The notes below the pieces were generated by a model. It made no database searches. It saw only the letters and a list, made by a program, of their open reading frames with translations, and was not told the origin of the DNA. Source: Opitutia bacterium ISCC 52 (GTDB lineage Bacteria; Verrucomicrobiota; Verrucomicrobiia; Opitutales; UBA2995). Taken from it: a stretch of 64,000 bases of DNA. The translations under genes were made by a program, and so were the position numbers. The stretch is taken from assembly GCA_014529675.2 (NCBI GenBank), contig CP076040.1, positions 310,001 through 374,000 of the forward strand. The letters run 5' to 3'. Below are positions 1,787-14,482 of the stretch, piece by piece; the stretch's first letter is position 1; the number at the start of each line of letters is the position of its first letter.

Positions 1787-1862
1787 GCCGGTGTAGCTCA
1801 ATTGGTAGAGCAACTGATTTGTAATCAGTAGGTTGCGGGTTCAAGTCCCATCGCCGGCTCCA
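1787..1862 (+). tRNA. tRNA-Thr (anticodon UGU), island attachment site
   Basis: A 76-nt cloverleaf with encoded CCA: acceptor GCCGGUG/CGCCGGC, D stem GCUC/GAGC, anticodon stem ACUGA/UCAGU around loop UUUGUAA (anticodon UGU). The T stem GCGGG/CCCAU contains one C-A mismatch and one G-U pair. The discriminator base is U. Positions 1799-1862 recur without a mismatch at 8759-8822. A 17-nt part of the 3' end recurs at 11163-11179, and a decayed copy lies at about 15086-15145. Tyrosine recombinases commonly use tRNA 3' halves as attB sites, so this intact copy is taken as the island's left end. Confidence 0.93.
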
Positions 1863-1975
1863 TTTAAAACACTGTTTTAGAGGGAGTTGTGAATGTTAAG
1901 GCAATTTCCATTGTATTTCATTGTAGGCAGATTTAGCTTGTTTTCAGCCGTTTTAGGGGCAATATAAGGGCAGTA

Positions 1976-2035
1976 ATGCCAAGGACAACAAAGCTGAAGC
2001 CCGTAAAAGTGGGTGATGGGAAGTGGCGGCAGTTG
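1976..2035 (+). pseudogene. N-terminal remnant of a probable tyrosine integrase
   Basis: An ATG 113 bp after the tRNA-Thr gene opens a frame beginning MPRTTKLKPVKVGDGKWR. This resembles the first strand of tyrosine recombinases that sit directly downstream of a tRNA target. After about 19 codons the sequence turns into the GC-rich repeat copy at 2011-2091. The frame then runs through composition unlike an integrase to a stop near 2120. No recombinase catalytic segment (the R..HxxR..Y residues) occurs anywhere in the window. Inference: the integrase was deleted and the repeat lies at the junction. The match is short and rests on recall of N-terminal patterns. Confidence 0.45.
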
Positions 2036-2091
2036 ATGCATATACATTCTAGGGCGACCTCCCCCGCTACCCCCGCCCCCGTCGGCGACAG
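2011..2091 (+). repeat. dispersed 75-bp repeat, copy A (orphan)
   Basis: Diverged copy of the island repeat. It shares GGCAGTTGATG followed by an AT-rich stretch and then a CCCCCGC-rich tail with the copies at 7327-7402 and 8507-8582. The T-run part of the element is not conserved here. It overlaps the end of the integrase remnant. Unlike copies B, D, E and F it does not stand before a gene start. Confidence 0.55.
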
Positions 2092-2105
2092 GGCTGCTTC
2101 TTTTT

Positions 2106-2261
2106 TTATTTCGACCTACTGAAACTTGCCATCGCTGATCTGTAAAAAGCTGGCATGTCCATCGACTTGAGAACCGCTTTTAGTTCTGGCGAGGCAGTTC
2201 CAAAAATTTCTATCTTTGCAATTTCAAAGTATCCTAAAAACTCCCCGAAAAGGCCCTCTAG
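2106..2261 (-). pseudogene. C-terminal gene fragment, unknown family
   Basis: A minus-strand frame of about 50 codons bounded by stops, with no convincing start codon and natural-looking composition (helical, ending SFSRSK). The segment ELKAVLKSM is echoed by a second minus-strand segment ELMLVLKSL just after the second tRNA-Thr copy (about 8830-8870). The two island segments therefore seem to have begun with homologous sequence at this place. I do not recognise the family. It could be the tail of a lost gene or chance. Confidence 0.3.
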
Positions 2262-2350
2262 TTAACCTCCCTCTGAGACATTCTGGCTATTAGTGAAATA
2301 ATGCATGAAGGCAATTGACTGTTAGGAACAGATTTTGCCTTAATTCAAAC

Positions 2351-2902
2351 ATGACAGATATCAAAAGAAGGGCTTTTCTCAAAAATGGTGTCGCGGCAGC
2401 GGCTATGCTCCCTGTCGCAGGGTTTGCGCAAGCGGGTGACGGTAATGAAATCCAAGTCGCCAATACCTTTGATGAAACAAAAATCGACTGGAAACCACTA
2501 CCAGGTCCCGATGGAGAACCAACAGAGCATGTTTCCTTGTCTTTTTTGAACATCGACGAGAAAGCAAAAGTAATCGATATCTTGTTTAAATTTTCAGCCA
2601 ATGCAAAAATTCCTATGCATAAACATTCCTCAAATTACAGTACCTTCACTGTTCAGGGAGAACTTCACACTTATGATACCGATGGGAATTTGAAAAGCGT
2701 TCGTCCTGCAGGTGTATTTAAAGCGGGAACTCCAGGAGAGGCACATACTGAGGGTGGAGGCGATGAAGACGTAGTCGTATATTTTAGTTTAAGGCCGTAC
2801 ACATCGACCGACCCTATATATGAAATACTAGATGAAAACTTAGAAGTTGTTGCAGGCATGTGTTTTGACGATCTTAAGGAACTTTACGAAGCATATTCCT
2901 AA
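2351..2902 (+). CDS. Tat-exported cupin-domain protein
   Basis: A 183-residue protein. The ATG at 2351 is chosen over an upstream in-frame start at 2315 because it places a twin-arginine signal directly at the N terminus (KRRAFLK, residues 5-11, followed by an Ala-rich hydrophobic stretch ending near residue 28). The mature part is a single beta-barrel cupin with metal-ligand-like H90 and H92 (MHKHS), then GELHTYDTDG and a later His in GEAHTEGG. This resembles small cupins related to ChrR-type or acetylacetone-cleaving enzymes. It is predicted periplasmic and metal-binding, with unknown substrate. It is the first intact gene inside the tRNA-Thr island and has its own downstream terminator. 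Confidence 0.75.
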   Translation: MTDIKRRAFLKNGVAAAAMLPVAGFAQAGDGNEIQVANTFDETKIDWKPLPGPDGEPTEHVSLSFLNIDEKAKVIDILFKFSANAKIPMHKHSSNYSTFTVQGELHTYDTDGNLKSVRPAGVFKAGTPGEAHTEGGGDEDVVVYFSLRPYTSTDPIYEILDENLEVVAGMCFDDLKELYEAYS

Positions 2903-2918
2903 TAAAAATATTATTCAG

Positions 2919-2945
2919 CGTTAGGGCTAACGAAGATATTTTTTT
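2919..2945 (+). terminator. rho-independent terminator of the cupin gene
   Basis: A perfect 6-bp hairpin CGTTAG-GG-CTAACG begins 17 bp after the cupin stop codon and is followed, after a short spacer, by a run of seven T. The T-run and following CTG resemble the core of the island repeat in the same orientation, so this terminator may be a diverged repeat copy. Confidence 0.65.
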
Positions 2946-2987
2946 CTGCCTAGAGTAGATGGGTTTCCAAGGGCAATCACGGCGTTC

Positions 2988-3521
2988 ATGTGCTATAATG
3001 GTACCTTGATATTGGAAGCCACAGGGTTGAAGGAGAGTATCGCTGATGCGGTGCATGAGTACGCGAGCAAGAAGCAGGAGGAGGGCGTAAAGAGTCTTTC
3101 TAGGATGAATCCTGAGAAGGTTGGCCAGATCCTCTATTTGTTCTCCCTAGGCGTAAGTCAGAGCCAAATGGTAAAGCGACACAAAATATGCCACAAGACG
3201 ATCAAGAAAACCTTGATGGAGTACGCTGATCATTTGGGTAAATGGGCCGAGGTTGGAGCGAGGCTTTCCAAACAGCTTTTTCTCAATCTTCATTCATTGG
3301 AGGAAGATATTATTGAAGATGTCAGGGAGCGTATGGAGAGCGGTAAATTGAAGCCCAACTTCCGCGATGTCTATTACGTCTCAACAGCTAAGGAAAAATC
3401 TTGGCAGCAAGCTCACAGAATTGAGGAGCGGAGAGAGGAAACAAATTACACTAGGAATGTTGTTAGCCAAGAAGACTATGAAAAGGTCCTAGCTAAGGCT
3501 AAGGAGAGGATGAAAGCCTGA
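2988..3521 (+). CDS. helix-turn-helix-like island protein, paralogue 1
   Basis: A 177-residue basic, helical protein. Residues about 36-75 contain a Trp/Phe-poor helix-turn-helix-like stretch (ILYLFSLGVSQSQMVKRHK, then KTIKKTLMEYA). A conserved second half follows, with SLEEDI..DV..R..SGKLKPNFRD. The same architecture, with the motif order SLSR-NP-KVG, LGVSQS, T-IK-TL-EYA, is present in the minus-strand gene at 10511-10969. I do not recognise the family. Spaced HTH plus acidic helices would suit a DNA-binding regulator, excisionase or terminase-small-subunit-like protein. The frame stays open upstream of the ATG without a better start. Both copies lie near a tRNA-Thr attachment-like site. Confidence 0.65.
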   Translation: MCYNGTLILEATGLKESIADAVHEYASKKQEEGVKSLSRMNPEKVGQILYLFSLGVSQSQMVKRHKICHKTIKKTLMEYADHLGKWAEVGARLSKQLFLNLHSLEEDIIEDVRERMESGKLKPNFRDVYYVSTAKEKSWQQAHRIEERREETNYTRNVVSQEDYEKVLAKAKERMKA

Positions 3522-3651
3522 ACTTAGCCCCCAGATGTTAATCTAAAAAGGAAGAGACTGGGAAAGAGAACAGGAGTGCGAGTGCTAATAAGGGGAGGTG
3601 TTTCATTCTACTGAGGATTTACTAATTTTGAGATTCTTTGTGAAGCTTTTT

Positions 3652-4018
3652 TCAGAACACTCTGTGCGGGAAAATTTCAATGTCCATTGAGTAGTGTCTC
3701 GCCATCTTCCTTAGCCTTTCCAGGTGCTTCTTCATCACCTCTGTCTTTAAGGACCAGAACAATGCCAGCCTTCTTGCCTGTCTGCATAGCGTAATTAAGA
3801 CTCTGCCCAATGGCTTCCGCCCATTTGTCCGCAAAGTCCACCTCAATGGCGTGAGTGGCTGTAACAATGTCGCAGCGAGTTCTATCCTCAAGAACCACTT
3901 CCGTTTCCCCTCCAACTAAGTTGGCGTAGTATTGCTAGTAGTGGCTTTCAGGGTACAGGCGTTTCGCCTGTAGCAAAGAGCAGGTGGCTAACAACACCAA
4001 TAGAGCGAGGGTTTTCAT
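3652..4018 (-). pseudogene. secreted nuclease-like protein, broken by stop and frameshift
   Basis: Read on the minus strand from the ATG at 4018, the frame begins with a signal peptide (MKTLALLVLLATCSLLQA). It reaches an amber stop at 3937-3935 after about 27 codons, then continues in frame through VLEDRTRCDIVT, AIEVDFADKWAEAIGQ and GIVLVLKDRGDE. At about 3725-3735 the coding frame shifts, and HLERLRKMARHYSMDIEIF follows in another frame to the stop at 3652. The E-V-D...K-W-A-E-A-I-G-Q pattern is shared by a family of small secreted PD-(D/E)XK-like proteins of unknown role. Two independent lesions make this a pseudogene. It is the last gene of the minus-strand island run, 7 bp after the J-domain gene. 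Confidence 0.7.
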
Positions 4019-4025
4019 TGGTGGA

Positions 4026-4790
4026 TTAAGATTCACAAGAGCCTACAACTATAAGAAAAATGATAAATAGCAAAACTGATCCACCAAGCATCACCCAACT
4101 ATCAGTATCATACTCAGGTTCTCTCACACTGGCCTTTTCTTTCTCAGGGTCATAGGCTATATACTGGTATCCATCCCATCGCAATGGTAGAGAATGCTTT
4201 TCTATTAAGCGTTTTATAATTTCTATGGCACTGCTATCTCCTAAGATACTAACGGCCTTATTAAGTTCTCTTAAAACCTCTTTATTTTTCTTCTTAATCA
4301 GGAAATTGGCTAATTCGATAACACTTCTATTTTCCCCAAAATAGGTTTCCAAAAAAGCCTTTCTAAGACGCTGTTTTAATTCCTCAGCTTCCATAAATTT
4401 TTTGGATTCCAAGAGTGTTATTCTAAAGATAAATCCTAGCCGTGATGATAGTGAAGAAAGCTCCTCAGAATACTCCTTCACTTCGGGGTGATAGGACAGG
4501 GCAATTTCCCATTCATCCTTAAAAGGGTCATTAGACCCACCTTGAGATTCAGTGAAGAATGGATCTTCTTCAGGTAGTTCATCCTTTCTTGAAGCATCAT
4601 ACTCGGTTCGCTTCTCCTCATTTGATAATGTATCGTAGGCTTTGTTTATAGCAGCCATGCGATCATGAGAATCCTCTCCTTGATAGAGATCGGGATGATA
4701 AAGCTTAGAAAGAGCTTTGTATGCCGCTGTGATTACTGCTGGCTCTGCACTGGGCAAAACACCCAAAATTGAATAGTAGTCCTTACTCAT
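4026..4790 (-). CDS. membrane-anchored J-domain protein
   Basis: A 254-residue protein with an N-terminal J domain (residues 4-66) carrying the HPD triad at 32-34, which in this family stimulates DnaK ATPase. A charged middle region of unknown fold follows. One hydrophobic segment lies near the C terminus (about 232-250), just before the end ESCES-like tail, so it is probably tail-anchored with the J domain in the cytoplasm. It lacks the G/F region and zinc fingers of DnaJ, so it is a specialised co-chaperone rather than DnaJ itself. Its ATG lies 5 bp after the stop of the Sel1 gene, indicating cotranscription. Confidence 0.85.
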   Translation of the reverse strand: MSKDYYSILGVLPSAEPAVITAAYKALSKLYHPDLYQGEDSHDRMAAINKAYDTLSNEEKRTEYDASRKDELPEEDPFFTESQGGSNDPFKDEWEIALSYHPEVKEYSEELSSLSSRLGFIFRITLLESKKFMEAEELKQRLRKAFLETYFGENRSVIELANFLIKKKNKEVLRELNKAVSILGDSSAIEIIKRLIEKHSLPLRWDGYQYIAYDPEKEKASVREPEYDTDSWVMLGGSVLLFIIFLIVVGSCES

Positions 4791-4795
4791 TATGG

Positions 4796-5245
4796 CTAGT
4801 CGCCCATCAACTTCGGGTTGGCCTTAAGCATTTCCCGTGAGAGGTCTTGAGCTTTAGCAATTTGTTCTTTGGTCATTAATTCAGCCAAATCTGCTTTCAC
4901 TTCCTTGGCATCTTCATCCCCATTGGCAGCAGCAATGAGCCACCACTTAGCTGATTCCTTGAAATCTTTAGGAACTCCTTGCCCAACATAATACCAATAT
5001 CCAAGCTTGAACTGAGCCAGAGGATTCCCTTGTTCGGCTGATTTCATAAGCCATTTCAAAGCTTCCTTGTCGTCTTCAGGAACGCCTCTCCCGTACTCAT
5101 ACATAACACTAAGATTATACTGAGCATCAACATTCCCATTTTCAGCAGCTTCTTTCCATTCCGCAATTTGTTCGGGAGTGGGCGTGTCGCCCCAAACACA
5201 TGCGCCGAAGGCGAGAAGGAGAATAATTGTTAGGAGTGCTTTCAT
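4796..5245 (-). CDS. secreted Sel1-repeat protein
   Basis: A 149-residue protein with a signal peptide (residues 1-19, ending CVWG) and two clear Sel1-like (SLR) repeats at about 38-73 and 74-109, with the signatures A-YNLSVMYEYGRGVPED and A-FKLGYWYYVGQGVPKD, plus a degenerate third. SLR proteins act as adaptor scaffolds. The location is periplasmic or surface. It sits between a lipoprotein gene (63 bp upstream) and the J-domain gene (5 bp downstream). The pairing of Sel1 and J-domain genes suggests a protein-handling or stress role, but no direct evidence fixes it. Confidence 0.85.
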   Translation of the reverse strand: MKALLTIILLLAFGACVWGDTPTPEQIAEWKEAAENGNVDAQYNLSVMYEYGRGVPEDDKEALKWLMKSAEQGNPLAQFKLGYWYYVGQGVPKDFKESAKWWLIAAANGDEDAKEVKADLAELMTKEQIAKAQDLSREMLKANPKLMGD

Positions 5246-5308
5246 TGCTTAATATATAGCACCCATCCTTCAGCTTGTGAAGGAATAATGGGAGAGCGGT
5301 TAGGTTAA

Positions 5309-5875
5309 CTAGAAATTATTAGGGTCATCAATTTTAACCCATCTCAACCCATTTTCATTGACGTAATACGCTCCATCCATCGCTGCAATTCCCAGAGTAG
5401 TGCGACTTTCAAATTTGGATTCACCTGAAATATCTTCATCCATGAGCTTTTGGTTATTTTTATCTCTTAATATGATGCTCATATTTACTTTTCCCTCCGA
5501 TCTAGTGCGGTTCTGAATAACAGGGATTGCTGAGACACCCTGATCATTACCTGCTGAATGGACAACTACTTGAAGTACTAAATCAGAGTCGGGTCCGCTT
5601 AAAATACACCCTGCATTTTCTATTTTTGATTCAAAGAAATATTGGAAATATGGACGCATATTTTCATCGGCAAATCCTATGATCTGGCAGGAAATTGGTT
5701 GGCCAGCGTAAGGTGAAAAATCTAAATTTTTAGAAGCCTCAACTAGTGCAATTCTCACTACGTTTTGGGCAACTGCGCTGTAGCCTCCAGTTCCAGCTGT
5801 CTTTTGTGTAGTGCTGCAACCTAGAAAAAGGAGTGAAATCAGTCCAAAGGATATAACTAGAGCTTTTATTTTCAT
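5309..5875 (-). CDS. lipoprotein of unknown function
   Basis: A 188-residue protein with a type II signal peptide; the lipobox LFLG-C places the lipidated Cys at residue 20. The mature part is a mixed alpha/beta domain with no family I recognise. The pattern (Ala-rich helix after the lipobox, then strands and S-G-E-S-K-F-E-S) is loosely like small outer-membrane lipoproteins that bind periplasmic partners. It is preceded 27 bp upstream of its ATG by repeat copy F, so it may start its own transcript even though it lies in the codirectional minus-strand run. Confidence 0.7.
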   Translation of the reverse strand: MKIKALVISFGLISLLFLGCSTTQKTAGTGGYSAVAQNVVRIALVEASKNLDFSPYAGQPISCQIIGFADENMRPYFQYFFESKIENAGCILSGPDSDLVLQVVVHSAGNDQGVSAIPVIQNRTRSEGKVNMSIILRDKNNQKLMDEDISGESKFESRTTLGIAAMDGAYYVNENGLRWVKIDDPNNF

Positions 5876-5902
5876 CGCTGTAGTGTAGATAAAAACTAGA
5901 GC

Positions 5903-5960
5903 TTAGGAAGAACATTTTTTCGGAGGCTAGTTGATGCTCTCAACCCATCTTGTGATGGGA
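5903..5960 (-). repeat. dispersed repeat, copy F (leader of lipoprotein gene)
   Basis: In the sense of the downstream lipoprotein gene it reads ATCAACTAGCCTCCG, then AAAAAATGTTC, then CCTAA, ending 27 bp before the ATG at 5875. This matches the core of copies B and D (ATCAACTGCCCCCAG, AAAAAATTGTC). The distal half differs from the other copies and contains a perfect hairpin, CCCATC-TTGT-GATGGG, at 5944-5959. Confidence 0.55.
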
Positions 5961-5968
5961 GGGTGTCC

Positions 5969-6211
5969 CTAATCAGTAACTCCAGCGACACCATCCTGTT
6001 CCGAGTTGTACTCAAGCTCACAGGAAGTTTGCTCCTTATTTAGCCATGGAGACATGCTCATGGCCTTGTTCCTTGGAAGGGATCCTCTGGCCGCGTTCTT
6101 CCTAGCTTCTTCCTCATCATCTCCGACCCAGCGGACAAAATCATCCTCTGGATAGTGTTTCCAGATGGAGTCCTGTGGATTGAGTTTCTTTAGTGAGTAG
6201 ACTTTAGGCAT
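5969..6211 (-). CDS. small hypothetical protein (80 aa)
   Basis: An 80-residue acidic protein beginning MPKVYSLKKLNPQDSIWK. The layout (Y-S-L-K-x-L-x-P-x-D near the start, then EDDFVRW and a D-E-E-E-A-R-x-x-A-A motif) resembles small single-domain proteins found near mobile elements, whose function is unknown to me. Its start codon overlaps the end of the preceding membrane-protein gene by 8 bp, a sign of translational coupling. There is no signal peptide, so it is probably cytoplasmic. Confidence 0.55.
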   Translation of the reverse strand: MPKVYSLKKLNPQDSIWKHYPEDDFVRWVGDDEEEARKNAARGSLPRNKAMSMSPWLNKEQTSCELEYNSEQDGVAGVTD

Positions 6212-6713
6212 CTTTTGATTCTAGCCAGTTAGAGAAACGTATGGCCCATGGCTCTGGAGAAAAGTATTCGGAAGTGTGAAACCTATCAACCTCAGCATTC
6301 ATTCCAGCATTGGGTTTAGGTATACCTAGCCATCCCCACAAAGCCTTCCTGTTTGCAGCAAACGCCATGCTTTCCCTGAATGGACTTTCATCAATCAACC
6401 CATTTATGAACTGATAGTATACGTCTTCAAATCGTTGGTACCTTACCCTCTCAAACCAGAACAGTCTTTCTTTATCTAGGCCAGTGATTGCCTCAAAATC
6501 ACCTTCCATTAGAGCCATATGAACAGAAAGCACTGAATCTTCGGAGTATATCTGGCTGAATTCCTCAATCATCGCGTTACTGCGATCCTGCCTGATCTCA
6601 GACCGAGCGATGCTTGAAGTCTGCCGCATTTCAATAATCAGGAAAACGAGGCCAGCGAGTACAGCTACGTTTCCAAGTGCTGTGGTGATAGTAAGGATGG
6701 TGTTTGTTTTCAT
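6204..6713 (-). CDS. single-pass membrane protein, paralogue A
   Basis: A 169-residue protein with one N-terminal membrane segment (about 8-27, TTALGNVAVLAGLVFLII). A cytoplasmic helical domain with charged residues and the signature SEIRQDRSNAMI follows, then a Trp-rich C-terminal half (KALWGWLGIPKPN). It is clearly paralogous to the upstream gene at 6750-7298: both begin MKTNT, share AGLVFLI/VGLVFLI, EIRQ-R, and R-PLW-WL-IP-PN. Tandem duplication is inferred. The fold resembles small membrane proteins of unknown function common in marine bacteria. Confidence 0.7.
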   Translation of the reverse strand: MKTNTILTITTALGNVAVLAGLVFLIIEMRQTSSIARSEIRQDRSNAMIEEFSQIYSEDSVLSVHMALMEGDFEAITGLDKERLFWFERVRYQRFEDVYYQFINGLIDESPFRESMAFAANRKALWGWLGIPKPNAGMNAEVDRFHTSEYFSPEPWAIRFSNWLESKDA

Positions 6714-6749
6714 AATTACGCTAAACTGGGGAATTAAGAAGCTGTGAGA

Positions 6750-7298
6750 TTATTCAAACACAAAGGGTGAGCCTAAGCCTTTGGAGGGACTTATCTTGCC
6801 CTCACTCCATTTTTTGAAAAATATCGCAAAGTTGCTCTCCTTGAATTCTGAATCTTCCATGTAGCTCTTAATAGCCGCCCGAAATTTAGGGTTAGGATCT
6901 GGAATTCTTAACCATTTCCAAAGAGGCGTTCTGCTTGCAGCCATAGCTATGCTGAAACGGTATGCATTCTCATCAATTAATCCTTCCTGGTACTGAAAGA
7001 AAACGTCTTCAAGTCGGAAGCCCCTTGCTAGTTCATAGTGTCTTATCTGTCCCCATTCATTATTGGGTACAGAGTCAAAATCCGCATTATCTATCGCTCG
7101 GTGAAGAAGAGAGTTGAATTGCTCATCTCTGGCGTAAGCGGTGTATTCATTAATAATACTAAGAGTTCTTTCCTGTCTTATCTCGGATAGTGCGATGGCA
7201 GAATTCTGTTTAATTTCAAAGATAAGGAAGACCAGTCCGACTAGGACCCCGACATTGGCAGTTGCTGTACTTAAGGTGATGAAGGTGTTTGTTTTCAT
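6750..7298 (-). CDS. single-pass membrane protein, paralogue B
   Basis: A 182-residue protein. The ATG at 7298 is preferred to the in-frame ATG at 7313 because it aligns with the start of paralogue A (MKTNT) and gives the same 28-bp distance to repeat copy B that the other cargo genes have to theirs. The N-terminal membrane segment spans about residues 8-26. The cytoplasmic part has SEIRQERTLSII, FRLEDVFFQYQEGLIDE and PLWKWLRIPDPN. This is the first gene of the seven-gene minus-strand run and lies 36 bp before paralogue A. Function unknown. Confidence 0.7.
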   Translation of the reverse strand: MKTNTFITLSTATANVGVLVGLVFLIFEIKQNSAIALSEIRQERTLSIINEYTAYARDEQFNSLLHRAIDNADFDSVPNNEWGQIRHYELARGFRLEDVFFQYQEGLIDENAYRFSIAMAASRTPLWKWLRIPDPNPKFRAAIKSYMEDSEFKESNFAIFFKKWSEGKISPSKGLGSPFVFE

Positions 7299-7326
7299 AA
7301 TAAAACCAAACATGAAGAAGACCTGT

Positions 7327-7402
7327 TAGGGCGACAATTTTTTCTGGGGGCAGTTGATGTATATATATTGCGATGCTGCCGCCCCCCGCGACCCCGTCCC
7401 CG
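7327..7402 (-). repeat. dispersed repeat, copy B (leader of minus-strand gene run)
   Basis: Positions 7327-7396 are identical to 8507-8576 (copy D) over 70 bp. In the sense of the minus-strand genes it reads a GC-rich block, an ATATATATAC stretch, ATCAACTGCCCCCAG, AAAAAATTGTCG and CCCTAA, then 28 bp to the ATG at 7298. The TATATA could serve as a -10 region, but no good -35 is evident. The part GGGGGCAG...CTGCCgCCCCC can also fold. It lies between the minus run and the divergent VPDSG gene at 7447. Confidence 0.75.
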
Positions 7403-7446
7403 TTGGTCTGCTTCACATCGGCCAACGCATAATATTGTGTTACGAT

Positions 7447-8004
7447 ATGAAAAGAGTGTTACCCCTGCTCAAAGTCAGTCTCCTGTTGGCATGCCTCCCT
7501 GCTTCGGCATCGGCGATAACCATTACCATTTCGGCTCTGAACGACTCGGCGACCGAAATAACACTCACGGCCACTGGGGAGGCTTATATTTCTCAAACCT
7601 TTTGGCCGGCCGGCGATAAATATTTTGGAAATATAGGGGATTTTATCACAAACGGCTCCGGGTTAAATGCTACATGGTTTACTCCGTCATCTGGGATAAC
7701 TGCATCAGGACATGCATTAACTAGGATTCAGCTGAACGATGGTGGCGGCTCAAACGATGACGATTTGTGGATTTGGTTTGCCATCTTCACTTCAACGCCC
7801 GGCTCGTATGAGATTTCAGGCAGTGCAACGATAGACCTTGGGGGAGAAGGGCATACGTTTGGCGATTTCAACGTAGGTACGTATGAGGATGACGGCGATA
7901 CTTTTATAGTTCAATACAGTTCCGTCCCCGACACAGGGTCCACAGCAGCCCTTCTTGGAGTGGGTGTTGCGGCTCTAGCCTTCGCTAGGCGGAAGCTGGG
8001 ATAA
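7447..8004 (+). CDS. secreted VPDSG-CTERM protein
   Basis: A 185-residue exported protein. The ATG at 7447 is chosen because it begins a normal signal peptide (MKRVLPLLKVSLLLACLPASASA). The longer frame from 7354 would run through repeat copy B. The body is beta-rich with Gly/Asp/Thr and no recognised enzymatic motif. The C terminus has VPDTGST, a hydrophobic segment (AALLGVGVAALAF) and basic ARRKLG. This is the tripartite VPDSG/PEP-CTERM sorting signal recognised by exosortase in Verrucomicrobiota. No exosortase is in the window. The protein is expected at the cell surface or in exopolymer. Confidence 0.82.
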   Translation: MKRVLPLLKVSLLLACLPASASAITITISALNDSATEITLTATGEAYISQTFWPAGDKYFGNIGDFITNGSGLNATWFTPSSGITASGHALTRIQLNDGGGSNDDDLWIWFAIFTSTPGSYEISGSATIDLGGEGHTFGDFNVGTYEDDGDTFIVQYSSVPDTGSTAALLGVGVAALAFARRKLG

Positions 8005-8019
8005 GAATAGCTTCAGACG

Positions 8020-8053
8020 CCCTTTGAGGGACAATTTTTTCTGGGGGCAGTTG
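8020..8053 (+). terminator. terminator-like hairpin containing partial repeat copy C
   Basis: A short stem CCCT-TTG-AGGG starts 15 bp after the VPDSG gene stop and is followed by ACAA and a run of six T. The segment from 8026 (GAGGGACAATTTTTT then CTGGGGGCAGTTG) matches the first 28 bp of repeat copies B and D. This copy sits between two converging genes and lacks the AT- and GC-rich second half. It may end transcription of the VPDSG gene. Confidence 0.5.
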
Positions 8054-8074
8054 CTTAGGTATGCGATCAAGGCA

Positions 8075-8479
8075 CTATTTTAATCGCGATCCACTAAAGC
8101 TGATTTTCCGCTGACCACTTAGCTCTCCCTCAATGTCATCTCCATCAATGACAGCTTTGAGATCAAAAGAATAACCACTAATTGTAAAATTAGCAGTTGC
8201 CGAGCCATCAGATTCAAGGACTACGTTTTTGAGTGGTGCCTCGCCTGTTGGAGTAATAACCGCACCCGAAAATCCTTCACTCGCTTCATTGAACCGTAGT
8301 TCCGAATTCTCTTCCGCTCCTCGCCAAGGGTTAACATATTTAATAAGGAAATTGCCGCCGAGCGGTTCTTCATCCGCTTCGGGGATTTGGGCTGATTGAG
8401 TCTCAGCTACTTTCGGTACAGTCTCACAGCCTGGAAAAAAGAGGCAACCGAGGGCGAGTAGGATGGAGAGCGATTTCAT
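8075..8479 (-). CDS. small lipoprotein
   Basis: A 134-residue protein with a type II signal peptide (lipobox FFPG-C, Cys18). After a Glu/Ala/Pro linker comes an all-beta domain of about 90 residues (GNFLIKYVNPWRG, ATANFTISGYSFDLKAVIDG, EGELSGQRKISFSGSRLK). This looks like a small lipocalin- or META-like barrel, but I do not recognise a named family. It is probably anchored to the outer membrane. Repeat copy D ends 27 bp before its ATG. It converges with the VPDSG gene. Confidence 0.72.
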   Translation of the reverse strand: MKSLSILLALGCLFFPGCETVPKVAETQSAQIPEADEEPLGGNFLIKYVNPWRGAEENSELRFNEASEGFSGAVITPTGEAPLKNVVLESDGSATANFTISGYSFDLKAVIDGDDIEGELSGQRKISFSGSRLK

Positions 8480-8506
8480 ATCTTAACCAAATCAGAGATT
8501 GCCCCA

Positions 8507-8582
8507 TAGGGCGACAATTTTTTCTGGGGGCAGTTGATGTATATATATTGCGATGCTGCCGCCCCCCGCGACCCCGACCCCC
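8507..8582 (-). repeat. dispersed repeat, copy D (leader of lipoprotein gene)
   Basis: Seventy bases (8507-8576) are identical to copy B at exactly 1180 bp distance, then diverge slightly. It ends 27 bp upstream of the lipoprotein ATG at 8479. The adjoining bases GCCC-CATA-GGGC (8501-8512) form a small hairpin next to the T-run. Identity of this length between non-coding segments implies recent duplication or gene conversion. Confidence 0.75.
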
Positions 8583-8750
8583 TTGCCGTGGGAAAATGCT
8601 CTTGATAATCTTTGAAAAGGAAGCTTTTAGGTTCACGGTTCCACTAGTAGGGCAAGATCCTTAGAGGCAATATAGGGGCATCAACTTTTTTTATCCAGAT
8701 AAAATAACAGATTTTAATCTTATAAGTTACTATTTATAAGATATTTGCAT

Positions 8751-8822
8751 GCGTAGCACAATTGGTAGAGCAACTGATTTGTAATCAGTAGGTTGCGGGT
8801 TCAAGTCCCATCGCCGGCTCCA
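8751..8822 (+). repeat. tRNA-Thr partial copy (attachment-site repeat)
   Basis: Positions 8759-8822 are identical to 1799-1862 of the intact tRNA-Thr, exactly 6960 bp apart. Upstream of 8759 the sequence departs: the 5' acceptor becomes GCATGCG (two mismatches to CGCCGGC) and the D stem becomes GCAC/GAGC with an A-A clash. The duplicated block therefore covers the 3' five-sixths of the tRNA, as expected of an att site made by integration. It is unlikely to be a working tRNA. Confidence 0.85.
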
Positions 8823-8990
8823 CTTTTAAATAGTTGTAGTTCAACGACTTGAGAACCAGCATAAGCTCTGACAATATTTTTTGGGATGTGGGTATATGGG
8901 TAAAATCTCCGAAAAATCTCCGATAAAAACCCAATTTTCCTGCGAGCCACTGTTTTCCAGCCACCTTGCACTCGTCAGGATTGGAACCGC

Positions 8991-9067
8991 ACGGGGAGGG
9001 GGTCGAGGGGATCCAGTCTCCGGATATATTTATACATTAACCACCCTCGAAAAAAATTGTTCACTTA
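8991..9067 (+). repeat. dispersed repeat, copy E (inverted; leader of LRR gene)
   Basis: Inverted relative to copies B and D, so that it again points at a gene start. In the plus sense it has a GGGGAGGGGGTCGAGGGG block, ATATATTTATACATTAAC, CACCCTCG, AAAAAAATTGTTC and ACTTA, ending 28 bp before the ATG at 9096. It is diverged in sequence from copies B and D but keeps the order of blocks and the spacing. Confidence 0.65.
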
Positions 9068-9095
9068 TTAGGCAAGCTGTGCGAACACTAGCTTG

Positions 9096-10619
9096 ATGAA
9101 AAGATCACTAGCCCTTCTCGCTGCCTTTGTTATTGCCTCCGTCCATCAGACTTTGTTTGGAGAAACTTCAGGAGATTGGACATACACGGTCTCCGACAAC
9201 CAAGCTACCATCACGGGCTATTCGGGTGATGACACAGAAGTGGTAATCCCAGCTGAAGTTGACGGTAAGTCGGTCGTCAAGGTCGAGGGAGGCTCTTTTA
9301 ATTCTATCTTCGACCCCTCATCTTCCTCCGTGACAAGTGTCACCATCCCCGACGGCGTTAAGACCATTGGTCAATGCGCTTTCTATAATTGCAGCAACCT
9401 TACAAGCGTCACCATACCCGACAGCGTCACGTCTATTGAGTGGTTTGCTTTTAACTCGTGTATTAAACTTTCAAGTGTTAACATTCCCAAAGGTATAGCT
9501 AGTATTGGTGATAGAGCCTTCGGAACTTGCTACAAGCTCACCAGCTTCACGGTTGATCCAGACAACTTAAGTTTCAGCTCATTAGCTGGCGTATTGTTCA
9601 ATAAACTACAGACTGAATTAATTTTATACCCAATCGGAAGTGAAAATAGTTCTTACACCATTCCAGACGGCGTGACGACTATTGGTGATCACGCTTTCTT
9701 ATATGGGAGATCGCAGCTTATTAGTATCATCATCCCAGACGGCGTGACCACTATCGAGCGTTATGCATTCTATCATGTCGAAGGCATTATCAATTTCACT
9801 ATTCCTGCCAGCGTGACGACTATTGGGGAAAATAATTTCGATGCATGTTATAATCTTTTTAGTATCACGGTTGATACTAATAACTCAAATTATAGTTCTG
9901 TAGATGGTGTATTATTTAATAAACTGCAAACGTCATTGATTAAATACCCAACTGCAAAAGAGAATGACTCTTACACCATCTCCGACAGCGTCACGAGTAT
10001 TAGTCCTAGTGCGTTCTTTGGTTCCAGCAGCCTTACCAGTGTCACCATCGGAAACAGCGTCACGAGTATTGGTTATGCTGCTTTCGCCGCTTGCCGGAGC
10101 CTTACCAGCGTCACCATCCCTGACAGCGTGACGATTATTGAATGGGAGGCGTTCGTTCATTGCATCAGCCTTACAAGCATCACCATCCCTGACAGCGTCA
10201 CGTATATTGAGGGATATGCGTTCTTTGGTTGCACCAGCCTTACCAGCGTAACTCTTCCGGTAACCCTCTTTATGGAGGAAAACTATAGTTCTTATAGTTT
10301 GTCAGCCGATCAAGTTCGTGTGGAAAAGACTTCAATAGATACATTCGTAGCTAATGCCGAAACAGCCGCACGCACACTAGGGCAAACGGATGTTATCAAT
10401 AACCCTACCATTCATGGACTATTTGGTGAAAACACTGTTGAAGACGTAAGAATAGGTGCCCCGATGATGAGGAAGAACAGTGAGGGTAAGTTGTTGTTTG
10501 ATTTCCAAATTCAAGCTTCGGACGACCTACAAAACTGGACCACCCTTGATGCTCCAGAATACGAATTGATTCCAAGCTCAGACAAAGAGTTTTTGAGAGT
10601 TAGGGTTTCAAACGAATAG
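9096..10619 (+). CDS. BspA-type leucine-rich repeat surface protein
   Basis: A 507-residue protein with a signal peptide (residues 1-22). The ATG at 9096 follows a TTG that the longer frame would use. A short N-terminal strand region (DWTYTVSDNQATITGY) precedes about a dozen LRR_5 (BspA/TpLRR) repeats, each of about 23 residues with consensus LTSVTIPDSVTSIG-AF--C. Two longer inserts carry VDGVLFNKLQT-LI-YP. The end (about 430-507) is a non-repeat domain. BspA repeats mediate adhesion in other bacteria, but in this family the ligand is often unknown. It is preceded by repeat copy E, and its last 109 bp overlap the antisense HTH-like gene. Confidence 0.85.
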   Translation: MKRSLALLAAFVIASVHQTLFGETSGDWTYTVSDNQATITGYSGDDTEVVIPAEVDGKSVVKVEGGSFNSIFDPSSSSVTSVTIPDGVKTIGQCAFYNCSNLTSVTIPDSVTSIEWFAFNSCIKLSSVNIPKGIASIGDRAFGTCYKLTSFTVDPDNLSFSSLAGVLFNKLQTELILYPIGSENSSYTIPDGVTTIGDHAFLYGRSQLISIIIPDGVTTIERYAFYHVEGIINFTIPASVTTIGENNFDACYNLFSITVDTNNSNYSSVDGVLFNKLQTSLIKYPTAKENDSYTISDSVTSISPSAFFGSSSLTSVTIGNSVTSIGYAAFAACRSLTSVTIPDSVTIIEWEAFVHCISLTSITIPDSVTYIEGYAFFGCTSLTSVTLPVTLFMEENYSSYSLSADQVRVEKTSIDTFVANAETAARTLGQTDVINNPTIHGLFGENTVEDVRIGAPMMRKNSEGKLLFDFQIQASDDLQNWTTLDAPEYELIPSSDKEFLRVRVSNE

Positions 10620-10969
10620 TTCACCTGCCCAACATCTTCTATAGCTCTCATCGCTTGCCGTTCCGCCTTGTCCAAAGCAACGCTCACCGGCAACAAATCA
10701 CTGAATGTTGGTTTCAATTCTCCGGAGCTGAGTCGCTGCTGTAAATCTGACACCATGTCCTCTTCAATGGAGCTTAGCTCAAGGAATAGTCGTCTATTAA
10801 TTTCAACACCCAACTTGCGCCAGCGTGTTGTGTGGTTGGCATACTCAATTAGTGTGTGTTTGATAGTGCCGTGAGACAAATGATATTTCTTCACCATCGT
10901 CGATTGGCTGACGCCCTGACTCCATAGATAGAGGATCAGTCCGACCTTCTTTGGATTGTATCGGCTCAA
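10511..10969 (-). CDS. helix-turn-helix-like island protein, paralogue 2 (altered ends)
   Basis: Paralogue of the 2988-3521 protein: SRYNPKKVGLILYLWSQGVSQS, T-IKHTLIEYANH and SIEEDMVSDLQQRLSSGEL match it in order. The TTG at 10969 is the only usual start codon. In-frame homology (IDIELKESIAEAVDEF) continues upstream to about 11050 in a frame open to 11098 but without ATG, GTG or TTG, so the N terminus is damaged or starts unusually. The last about 36 codons (10511-10619) are antisense to the end of the LRR gene and do not match paralogue 1. The C terminus was probably replaced when the LRR gene arrived. It may be a pseudogene. Confidence 0.55.
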   Translation of the reverse strand: MSRYNPKKVGLILYLWSQGVSQSTMVKKYHLSHGTIKHTLIEYANHTTRWRKLGVEINRRLFLELSSIEEDMVSDLQQRLSSGELKPTFSDLLPVSVALDKAERQAMRAIEDVGQVNYSFETLTLKNSLSELGINSYSGASRVVQFCRSSEA

Positions 10970-11162
10970 GCTTTTAATTCCCTCCAGCTTCTTCTGCTTG
11001 GCAAACTCATCGACCGCTTCAGCGATGCTTTCTTTTAATTCGATATCAATAAATTGGGGATTGGCTATCCTGTAAAAATGTTTCCAGCTTCGGTTCTTTC
11101 ACCTGCGCGGGTGTTCCAATCTGCTTCGCAGTCTGTCTTATCCTCGCTAGGCTCCACGTAAT

Positions 11163-11179
11163 AAGTCCCATCGCCGGCT
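11163..11179 (+). repeat. 17-bp tRNA-Thr 3'-end repeat
   Basis: AAGTCCCATCGCCGGCT matches the T-loop/acceptor end of the tRNA-Thr gene (1843-1859 region) and of its copy at 8751-8822, in the same orientation. It lies about 110 bp beyond the N-terminal end of HTH-like paralogue 2. Seventeen bases is a usual core length for tRNA att sites, so it is read as a third attachment relic. Confidence 0.6.
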
Positions 11180-11912: not shown

Positions 11913-12998
11913 ATGATATTCCCAACTCAATACAACGAGGTTCTCAACAGGATAGAGCAGGTAGATCCCATTGCTTATGGGCGGAGTCGAAATTTTGTGG
12001 ATGGTGCCGTAACTTACTTGTCACCCTACATCTCCAGAGGTGTTATTTCTACAAAACAGGTGCTCCATTCAGTGTTGGGTCGGGGATACAATCCAGAAAA
12101 GATTAAAAAGTTCATTCAAGAGTTGGCTTGGCGGGATTACTGGCAGCAGGTATGGATTCATAAGGGGTCGGCGATTGAAAAGGATCTGCTTCACCCTCAG
12201 CCTGGATTCGACAATCATCAATTGGCGATTTCCATTATTCGGGCTGAAACAGGTATTCATGCGATTGATACAGCGATCGAAACATTTTATGAAACCGGTT
12301 ATCTTCATAACCATGTTCGCATGTATGTTGCAGCCATGGCTTGTAACCTTGGTAGAAGTCACTGGAGAGCCCCGGCTCGCTGGATGTATCATCATCTTCT
12401 CGATGGGGATTGGGCGAGTAACGCGCTGAGCTGGCAGTGGGTAGCGGGCTCCAACAGCCGCAAACAATACATCGCAAATCAGGAGAATATCAACCGTTAT
12501 TGTCATTCCCAGCAACGCGGAACTTTCCTCGATAAACCCTACAGTCGATTGTTGACCGACCCGAAACCTGAAGCTTTGGTGCCTCTCGCCGATCCCGAAC
12601 TAACGACCAAGCTGCCGAAAACCACACCTTCTGAAATCGATGCAGAACTCCCAACACTTATCTACAATTATTACAACCTCGATCCGCGATGGCATGTTGA
12701 AATGAAGGCAAATCGTGTACTTTTACTCGAGCCAGAGGTCTTCTCCAAATACCCAGTATCGGAGCCTTGTATACGTTTTGTCTTAGAGCTCGCAAAAAAT
12801 ATACCAGGCATCCAAATTTTTACCGGAAGCTTTGCTGCTTTACAATCACATTTGGGCGGGACAGAAGTACGGTTCAAAGAGCATCCCCTGAATCAGTTTC
12901 AAGGGACAGAAGAGCCTCGGGAATGGATGTTTGAAACGACAGGCTATTTCCGCTCTTTCTTTGCCTTTTGGAAACGCTGCGAGCGAGAAACAAGATGA
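11913..12998 (+). CDS. photolyase-like FAD-binding domain protein
   Basis: A 361-residue protein made only of the helical FAD-binding half of the cryptochrome/photolyase superfamily (PF03441-like). It carries ELAWRDYWQQVW, HNHVRMYVAAMACNLGR, a DGDWASNALSWQWVAGSNS block and IANQENINRY, which in this superfamily form the FAD cradle. The N-terminal antenna-binding alpha/beta domain is absent. After residue about 210 there is an extra domain instead. It may repair DNA lesions or act as a light sensor; substrate unknown. The next gene, a full-length family member, overlaps its stop by four bases (ATGA), so the two are translationally coupled. Confidence 0.85.
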   Translation: MIFPTQYNEVLNRIEQVDPIAYGRSRNFVDGAVTYLSPYISRGVISTKQVLHSVLGRGYNPEKIKKFIQELAWRDYWQQVWIHKGSAIEKDLLHPQPGFDNHQLAISIIRAETGIHAIDTAIETFYETGYLHNHVRMYVAAMACNLGRSHWRAPARWMYHHLLDGDWASNALSWQWVAGSNSRKQYIANQENINRYCHSQQRGTFLDKPYSRLLTDPKPEALVPLADPELTTKLPKTTPSEIDAELPTLIYNYYNLDPRWHVEMKANRVLLLEPEVFSKYPVSEPCIRFVLELAKNIPGIQIFTGSFAALQSHLGGTEVRFKEHPLNQFQGTEEPREWMFETTGYFRSFFAFWKRCERETR

Positions 12999-14482
12999 CT
13001 AAGTGCCCCATTAACATTGTCTGGCTCAAGCGAGACCTACGTCTTGCCGATCATGCACCTCTGCAAGCTGCAGAGGAGGCAGGTATCCCTTACTTTATTT
13101 GCTGTTTGCTGGAACCATCCTTCCAAAAGCATCCCGACTGGAGTCTACGTCATTGGCAGTTTACTTATCACAGCCTGCCTTCCATGAACCGAGGGCTTGG
13201 GTCCTCTGGGCGAAAAGTGGATCTTTTCTTTGGAGAGGCCACCGAGGTTTTTTGCTGGGCCCTAAAACATTATTCAGTAAGGAATGTTTTTAGTTATCAG
13301 GAGACGGGGACGGAAACCACCTGGAACCGGGACAAACAGGTTAGAACGATTCTCCAAGAGCACGGAACGCAGTGGACGGAGTTTCAACGTGACGGCATTT
13401 TACGTGGAATCAAGGACCGAAAGGGTTGGGATAAAAAGTGGTTTTTTATTATGCATTCACCTGGCATTGAGAATCGTTATTCCATGCAGTCCCTTACCCT
13501 CAAAAAGCATCCCTTTACCCTCAATGCCAATCTCCTTAAGGAATTGGAAAGTTATCCTCATGCCTTCCAAAAACCTGGAGAACCGGAGGCATACCATCAG
13601 CTCTCCTCTTTCGCTGAAGAAAGGGGACTAAATTACCACAAGCACATTTCTAAACCGGCAGAGAGTCGCGTATCCTGTTCCCGCCTTTCTACTCATCTCG
13701 CATGGGGCAATCTTTCTGTTAAACAAGCCTATCGATTCATCAAGCAGCATGACCAATATGCAAATCACAAACGTCCCTTCTCGGCATTTCTGCAACGTCT
13801 CAAATGGCATTGCCATTTTATGCAAAAGTTCGAAGTCGAATGTAGTTACGAATACCAGTGCGTGAATCGAGGTTATGAGTCGCTGGAACACGAGAACAGA
13901 TCGGATTGGCTGGAGGCTTGGAAAACCGGTCATACAGGTTTGCCACTGGTCGATGCATTAATGCGTTGCCTTCATGAAACCGGTTGGATCAATTTTCGCA
14001 TGCGAGCCATGTTGGTTTCTGTCTTGTGTCACCACTTGGACCAAGACTGGAGACGAGGTACTAACCACTTGGCGCGACTTTTTCTCGATTACGAACCGGG
14101 GATACACTTCACCCAATTTCAAATGCAGGCCGGAACTACTGGTACAAATGCCATACGAATCTACAACCCTGTAAAACAATCCCTGGAACATGATCCGCTG
14201 GGTCATTTCATTCATCGCTGGGTTCCAGAACTTGAGGGCGTCCCGAACGCATTTACACATACCCCATGGAAAATGGAGCTATTGGAACAAACCATGTGTG
14301 GCGTAAAAATCGGAGAGACTTACCCTTGTCCTATAATAGACCCATTGGAGCGAGCTAAACAGGCTCGTAAGAAAATATGGGGCCATCGTAGTAATCCGTT
14401 GGTCAGATCAGAACGCGCCCGCATTCTCAAGACACATACCCGTAACACTTCAAGCGTAGCTCAACCGGCTCAACAAATTTAA
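12995..14482 (+). CDS. cryptochrome/photolyase family protein
   Basis: A 495-residue protein with both photolyase domains. The N-terminal alpha/beta antenna domain starts INIVWLKRDLRLADHAPL. The C-terminal FAD-binding domain contains TGLPLVDALMRCLHETGWI, NFRMRAMLVSV and a DYEPGIHFTQFQMQAGTTG segment. The ATG at 12995 is used, overlapping the upstream stop in ATGA, rather than the longer frame from 12968. The family uses FADH- and blue light to split pyrimidine dimers or (6-4) products, or to signal. Class cannot be assigned from motifs alone. Basic C-terminal tail. The pair lies between two tRNA-Thr relics. Confidence 0.88.
   Translation: MTKCPINIVWLKRDLRLADHAPLQAAEEAGIPYFICCLLEPSFQKHPDWSLRHWQFTYHSLPSMNRGLGSSGRKVDLFFGEATEVFCWALKHYSVRNVFSYQETGTETTWNRDKQVRTILQEHGTQWTEFQRDGILRGIKDRKGWDKKWFFIMHSPGIENRYSMQSLTLKKHPFTLNANLLKELESYPHAFQKPGEPEAYHQLSSFAEERGLNYHKHISKPAESRVSCSRLSTHLAWGNLSVKQAYRFIKQHDQYANHKRPFSAFLQRLKWHCHFMQKFEVECSYEYQCVNRGYESLEHENRSDWLEAWKTGHTGLPLVDALMRCLHETGWINFRMRAMLVSVLCHHLDQDWRRGTNHLARLFLDYEPGIHFTQFQMQAGTTGTNAIRIYNPVKQSLEHDPLGHFIHRWVPELEGVPNAFTHTPWKMELLEQTMCGVKIGETYPCPIIDPLERAKQARKKIWGHRSNPLVRSERARILKTHTRNTSSVAQPAQQI

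Follow-up and report, generated by a model that had tools for sequence, protein, structure and literature searches.

A two-block repeat at a conserved distance from start codons in tRNA-anchored, satellite-like islands of Opitutales

The chromosome of Opitutia bacterium ISCC 52 (contig CP076040.1) carries, in a stretch of 64,000 nucleotides (positions 310,001 to 374,000; hereafter the window), six copies of a short repeat, named A to F, that stand beside unrelated genes. The initial annotation described a portable 75-bp leader placed at a constant distance before four cargo genes. We find that the repeat is made of two blocks that meet at a core, TATACATCAAC|TGCCCC, and we refer to its copies as seams. 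In the window, 45 nt of the 3' end of a tRNA-Thr gene are repeated at 8778-8822 and 17 nt at 11163-11179; from the two tRNA-Thr genes and this third, 17-nt remnant we deduce a tandem pair of integrated islands, 1862-8822 and 8822-11179. Their features are listed below, with distances (+/-) counted from the core junction, which was located in 75 copies across the examined Opitutales loci.

1787..1862, + strand: tRNA-Thr(tgt), found with ARAGORN; attachment site and left end of the first island
1976..2031, + strand: start of an integrase-like gene (translation MPRTTKLKPVKVGDGKWRQ), interrupted at seam A
2001..2085, - strand: copy A, left half only, junction 2031/2032
2988..3521, + strand: TerS-like gene of the first island
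5309..5875, - strand: cargo lipoprotein, ATG at +54 from seam F
5898..5967, - strand: copy F, junction 5929/5930, left half of CCCATCACAAGATGGG type
6750..7313, - strand: cargo membrane protein (MKTNT...), ATG at 7298, +54 from seam B
7320..7405, - strand: copy B, complete seam, junction 7352/7353
7450..8004, + strand: antisense cargo, VPDSG-CTERM sorting-signal protein (Pfam PF18205, E 2e-10), stop at +45 from seam C
8016..8053, - strand: copy C, right half only, junction 8049/8050
8075..8479, - strand: cargo lipoprotein, ATG at +53 from seam D
8499..8585, - strand: copy D, complete seam, junction 8532/8533; a tRNA-Thr copy lies 215 bp away, orientation outward from the tRNA
8747..8822, + strand: duplicated tRNA-Thr, border between the two islands
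8902..8923, + strand: tandem 11-bp direct repeat AAAATCTCCGA, a putative integrase arm-like site
8992..9076, + strand: copy E, complete seam, junction 9041/9042; a tRNA-Thr copy lies 219 bp away, orientation outward from the tRNA
9096..10619, + strand: cargo BspA-type leucine-rich-repeat (LRR) protein (Pfam PF13306, E 7e-68), ATG at +54 from seam E
10511..11098, - strand: TerS-like gene of the second island (open frame; 10511-10969 if a TTG start is used)
11163..11179, + strand: tRNA-Thr 3'-end remnant, 17-nt duplicate, right end of the second island

Copies B, D, E and F lie essentially where they had first been annotated. The profile E-values in the window are 8e-21 (D), 2e-20 (B), 2e-16 (E), 3e-11 (A), 1e-10 (F) and 1e-5 (half copy C), the profile having been built partly from these same copies. 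Copies B and D are 97% identical over 79 bp, and the left half of F is unlike that of B, D and E. When the whole 4.8-Mb genome was scanned with the profile, six matches were obtained, all from this island region, the next best reaching only E 0.38 and none other being convincing. Two additional partial copies had been noted, and these prove to be separate halves: C is a right half adjoining the 3' end of the antisense gene, with no start codon behind it, and A is a left half fused to the truncated integrase gene. The integrase-like start at A resembles the N-terminus of the L025:3530-3895 product, which itself has a weak PHROG integrase match. The cargo proteins gave no match to a defence-gene library.

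The left block is composed of G-runs followed by TATATACATCAAC, the right block is TGCCCCCAGAAAAAATTGTYNYCYTA, and the shared core of about 25 bp is TATACATCAAC|TGCCCCCAGAAAAAATTG. We clustered the flanks beyond the conserved part into left and right classes across the 75 copies. The right side with the VPDSG-CTERM gene was seen in 16 copies and combined with 12 distinct left sides; for the lipoprotein/LRR right class (which merges two protein families through similar leaders) the numbers are 11 and eight, and for the right side with the MKTNT membrane protein six and five. Most left classes with several copies carry two to four right sides (L1, seven copies and two rights; L2, five and four; L3, three and three). 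The clearest case is that of copy B and its orthologue in genome G005, which have the same right side and gene and an unrelated left side. Position-wise identity drops to baseline left of the core in pairs with the same right side, and drops right of the core in pairs with the same left side; the left side is shared from about -9 outward and the right side as far as the core. Half copies (A, C, and others in G003 and G211) all terminate at one common place, and some are fused to interrupted coding sequence, as at L139, where an MKTNT gene is cut at its own GCAACTGCC. The occurrence of the same right sides with many left sides, and vice versa, indicates that cargo has been exchanged at the core.

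The tie to tRNA islands proposed at the outset is borne out. In 18 copies the core lies 167-267 bp from a tRNA or tmRNA gene or a duplicated 3' end, and all of these are oriented away from it, as is one more at 408 bp; among loci with such a gene or duplicate, the sole copy oriented towards the tRNA is the half copy A, at 169 bp. The remaining copies sit deeper inside the islands. Because the tRNA-proximal copies keep both distance and orientation, we assign the left block to the island's attachment-site side. Tandem duplications of tmRNA or tRNA ends were seen in several genomes besides this window, and between attachment site and seam there are integrase arm-like direct repeats, such as that at 8902-8923, which may bind integrase. 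Evidence of an integrase in the window consists of the truncated integrase-like start, and integrase fragments or genes lie near seams in G211 and G016. A segment at 3.65 Mb in the ISCC 52 genome that seemed to encode a further part of the G005 integrase-like protein is accounted for by an antisense gene overlapping it. A dif pattern, which was of the proteobacterial type and may not be that of the host, gave no match in six genomes.

A helix-turn-helix protein is encoded in each island of the window. Its relatives occur in 17 viral contigs, directly upstream of a large terminase gene that matches the PHROG category 'terminase large subunit'. We call this protein TerS-like, after the small terminase subunit. 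A PDB profile search with it returned an Sf6-type small terminase among the matches at only E 0.9, and with a match this weak the assignment rests on genome position; an AlphaFold2 model (mean confidence score, pLDDT, 59) was too weak to use. Among 53 related genomes TerS was found only in this genome (G000), G003 and G005, and among ten further seam-matching genomes only in G211, G243 and G323; seven genomes in all have strong seam matches, and six of them have TerS. The seventh, G004, a fragmented metagenome-assembled genome (MAG), has the seam, and TerS was not found there. Two features used to recognise phage satellites are thus represented: site-specific integration with direct repeats, by the tRNA/tmRNA 3'-end duplications in the window and several relatives, and a gene for redirecting packaging, by the TerS-like genes at 2988-3521 and 10511-11098. 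TerS is not universal among phage satellites. No structural genes were recognised in the islands. The small-terminase-like genes in both tandem islands would link the islands to phage packaging. Two similar proteins in G003 (L030:2375-2986 and L114:6090-6920) lie near seam or TerS copies; the Toprim-like match of the former is weak, its E of 0.002 falling short of the curated cut-off, and the protein could be a satellite primase remnant.

Copies were found in three of the five other genomes of the same genus and in a relative, the Opitutales MAG UBA2995. A profile search of 373 Opitutales genomes added strong copies in a second family, in G211 (a complete chromosome with 11 copies), G243 and G323, and weaker relatives of the repeat in two further families. 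All 75 copies in the examined loci fall within the order Opitutales, and their alignments have the common pattern G-runs ... TATACATCAA[CG]TGCC ... AAAAAATT. Among 388 genomes sampled from the phylum, the repeat exceeded the threshold used in Opitutales only; plasmid and phage records contained no copies, and pattern scans of viral contigs gave nothing convincing (a single chance-like match, later none). Matches in Maribacter, Desulfosporosinus and Bacteroidetes were to the short pattern only, and their profile scores were not convincing. Three G003 contigs (C10, C20 and C38; loci L030, L098 and L027) start no more than about 110 bp from a seam copy. Assemblies therefore probably break at seams, and copy numbers in MAGs are likely underestimated.

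The constant distance from core to ATG before unrelated genes, seen in the window at +53 (D) and +54 (B, E and F), is repeated in other genomes: in total 24 sense copies, from 11 protein families, have an ATG at +49 to +58 (mostly 52-55), although in one of them, L170, the longest frame begins earlier, at +25. ATG counts behind 53 cores in the f1 and f13 genomes form a sharp peak at +50-54 (count 23). The distance is not a property of the repeat in general, as about 21 of 49 classifiable copies face antisense genes, at the 3' end of the gene. Between unrelated families the spacer from about +32 to +52 has an identity of 0.20-0.48, mostly near random, yet its length is retained. A Shine-Dalgarno-like motif is absent from all 23 of 23 upstream regions, and positions -12 to -7 relative to the ATG approximate T-W-W-A-R-T, the T at -7 being present in 19 of 23. 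A -10 element is expected at -12 to -7 if the transcript starts at the ATG. The fixed spacing, the little-conserved spacer, the lack of a Shine-Dalgarno motif and the -10-like block suggest that the right block is a promoter for leaderless mRNAs, for which a fixed distance between promoter elements and start codon is characteristic.

For the antisense-facing copies other arrangements are seen. The reverse strand of the right block can be read as a terminator, as in copy D, where a stem at 8499-8514 is followed by CAATTTTTTC. In the f10 genomes the stop of the antisense gene is often at +14. Four f10 loci (L168, L169, L171 and L178) have unrelated antisense cargo (pentapeptide-repeat, lectin-like and others) with a common FRFK-type C-terminus, and the stop codon of such cargo is 13-14 bp from the seam.

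One interpretation, which we favour with moderate confidence, is that small integrative, phage-satellite-like islands stand at tRNA and tmRNA genes and have the repeat as their inner seam. The left block would be part of the attachment-site end of the island, and the right block the front of the cargo, with which it would travel. Recombination within the shared core of about 25 bp would exchange cargo modules, and different genes would for that reason stand behind one type of seam. For sense cargo the right block is probably also a promoter, with transcription starting at or next to the start codon, which would fix the ATG at about +53. Such islands may be mobilised by a helper phage.

Several observations weigh against this interpretation. 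In the f10 genomes the TerS family was not found, and sense ATGs are at different distances (57 to 110). The resolution of the breakpoints is limited to the conserved core, and no recombinase acting there was identified, the integrases near seams being mostly remnants. The T at -7 is a post hoc observation with a P value uncorrected for that or for relatedness, TTGT and the -10-like block lie about 20 bp apart, above the usual spacing, and a scan of the region with the standard sigma-70 consensus gave fewer sites than in shuffled sequence.

Some of the same facts are those expected if no dedicated enzyme were involved and ordinary homologous or phage-recombinase exchange took place at a short conserved border that is kept for another reason such as cargo expression. 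Breakpoints may then fall anywhere in the core, the nearby integrases are mostly decayed, and the conserved spacing provides an independent reason for the border to be conserved. The foreign coding sequence to which half copies are joined, however, has no more than about 8 bp (CAACTGCC) in common with the core, and we regard this alternative as possible and the less probable account. Doubtful, in our judgement, is a dedicated system for exchanging cargo cassettes in tRNA-anchored phage satellites, integron-like in effect and unrelated to IntI/attC, in which a putative recombinase would swap cargo at CATCAAC|TGCC and the start codon of each incoming gene would thereby become the transcription start.

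The TerS genes and the position of one complete seam at a fixed distance from the attachment site would also suit a satellite packaging (cos-like) site, with terminase-cut ends of different elements rejoined such that their halves are mixed. We consider this unlikely, as there are several seams per short island (six in the window), seam halves are inserted in unrelated genes, and the 17 phage contigs have no seam near TerS. Less probable again is a single mobile 75-bp promoter or leader moving as a unit before cargo, as initially proposed. The constant ATG distance in 11 families speaks for it, and its promoter component may survive in the right half, but the halves reassort, with the left half of a mobile unit contradicted by copy B and its G005 orthologue; many copies face antisense genes, and neither terminal repeats nor target duplications of a transposable unit were seen. 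Likewise, the suggested shared RNA fold did not hold up, and an RNA leader or riboswitch was rejected: Rfam matched tRNAs only, there were no consensus pairs, and in the main types the folds did not surpass those of shuffled sequence.

An integron-like gene-cassette array with attC-type sites and an integron integrase, which would account for single-gene modules separated by repeats and for integron-integrase-like genes in three genomes of the genus, is largely refuted and highly improbable, since this genome has no TIGR02249 match above cut-off, the integrases of the genus have no adjacent seam, the core GTTGATG/CATCAAC does not fit the attC consensus GTTRRRY/RYYYAAC, and, as single strands, the main types fold no better than shuffled sequence (the F type only slightly better). 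The three orphan genes (L043:6725-8221, L042:105-1124 and G001:C60; TIGR02249 above cut-off) have no attC-like array nearby, and one encodes a long form of about 500 aa. Plasmid or known-phage elements gave no match, and IS200/IS605-, IS91- and Helitron-type ends were considered and set aside, no search for an HUH transposase having been made.

Among known systems, phage-inducible chromosomal minimalist islands (PICMI) of Vibrionaceae are about 6 kb, have short flanking direct repeats and minimal gene content, and are phage-mobilised; they adjoin fis, lack a terS homologue and are not reported to have a cargo seam (PMC10803314). The islands described here are likewise small and bounded by direct repeats, but lie at tRNA or tmRNA genes, encode a TerS-like protein, have a cargo-exchange seam and are known from sequence. 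In additive flexible genomic islands of Alteromonas (PMC5217437) and Methylophilaceae (fGI-2; PMC10872708), cassettes are added by site-directed recombination, and recurring tRNA 3'-end repeats can mark them. Such repeats also mark the islands here, whereas a second conserved, non-tRNA sequence marks the cargo seam inside each of ours, at a fixed start-codon distance. Tycheposons are described as tRNA-anchored cargo elements of 4-200 kb with a tyrosine recombinase; our islands resemble them in anchoring and cargo, and differ in their size of a few kb, mostly decayed integrases and repeated internal seam. With integron cassette arrays and clusters of attC sites lacking an integron integrase (CALIN) they share single-gene modules separated by a repeated recombination-type site, but they have no linked IntI, no attC core and no superior single-strand fold, and are tRNA-anchored. 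A CALIN would itself be without a linked integron integrase. Phage morons and mosaic-phage boundary sequences also place cargo near an attachment end and swap it at short conserved borders; here, in contrast, a single border sequence is found again and again, at many tRNA loci and in several bacterial families. In the open-access literature searched, we found no description of a conserved seam inside islands with cargo reassortment at the seam and a fixed start-codon distance.

If the exchange-seam interpretation is correct, several families of one order use tRNA-anchored satellites to shuffle genes for surface and secreted proteins (lipoproteins, LRR, Sel1 and sorting-signal proteins), and the rule is simple: a swap at one short core that keeps the start-codon distance. 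This would be a directly testable route by which cargo enters satellites and is immediately expressed, and such islands could be found cheaply with the seam as a sequence tag.

The second island is followed directly by two neighbouring genes, 11913-12998 and 12968-14482, that resemble the photolyase/cryptochrome family, judged on translation alone.

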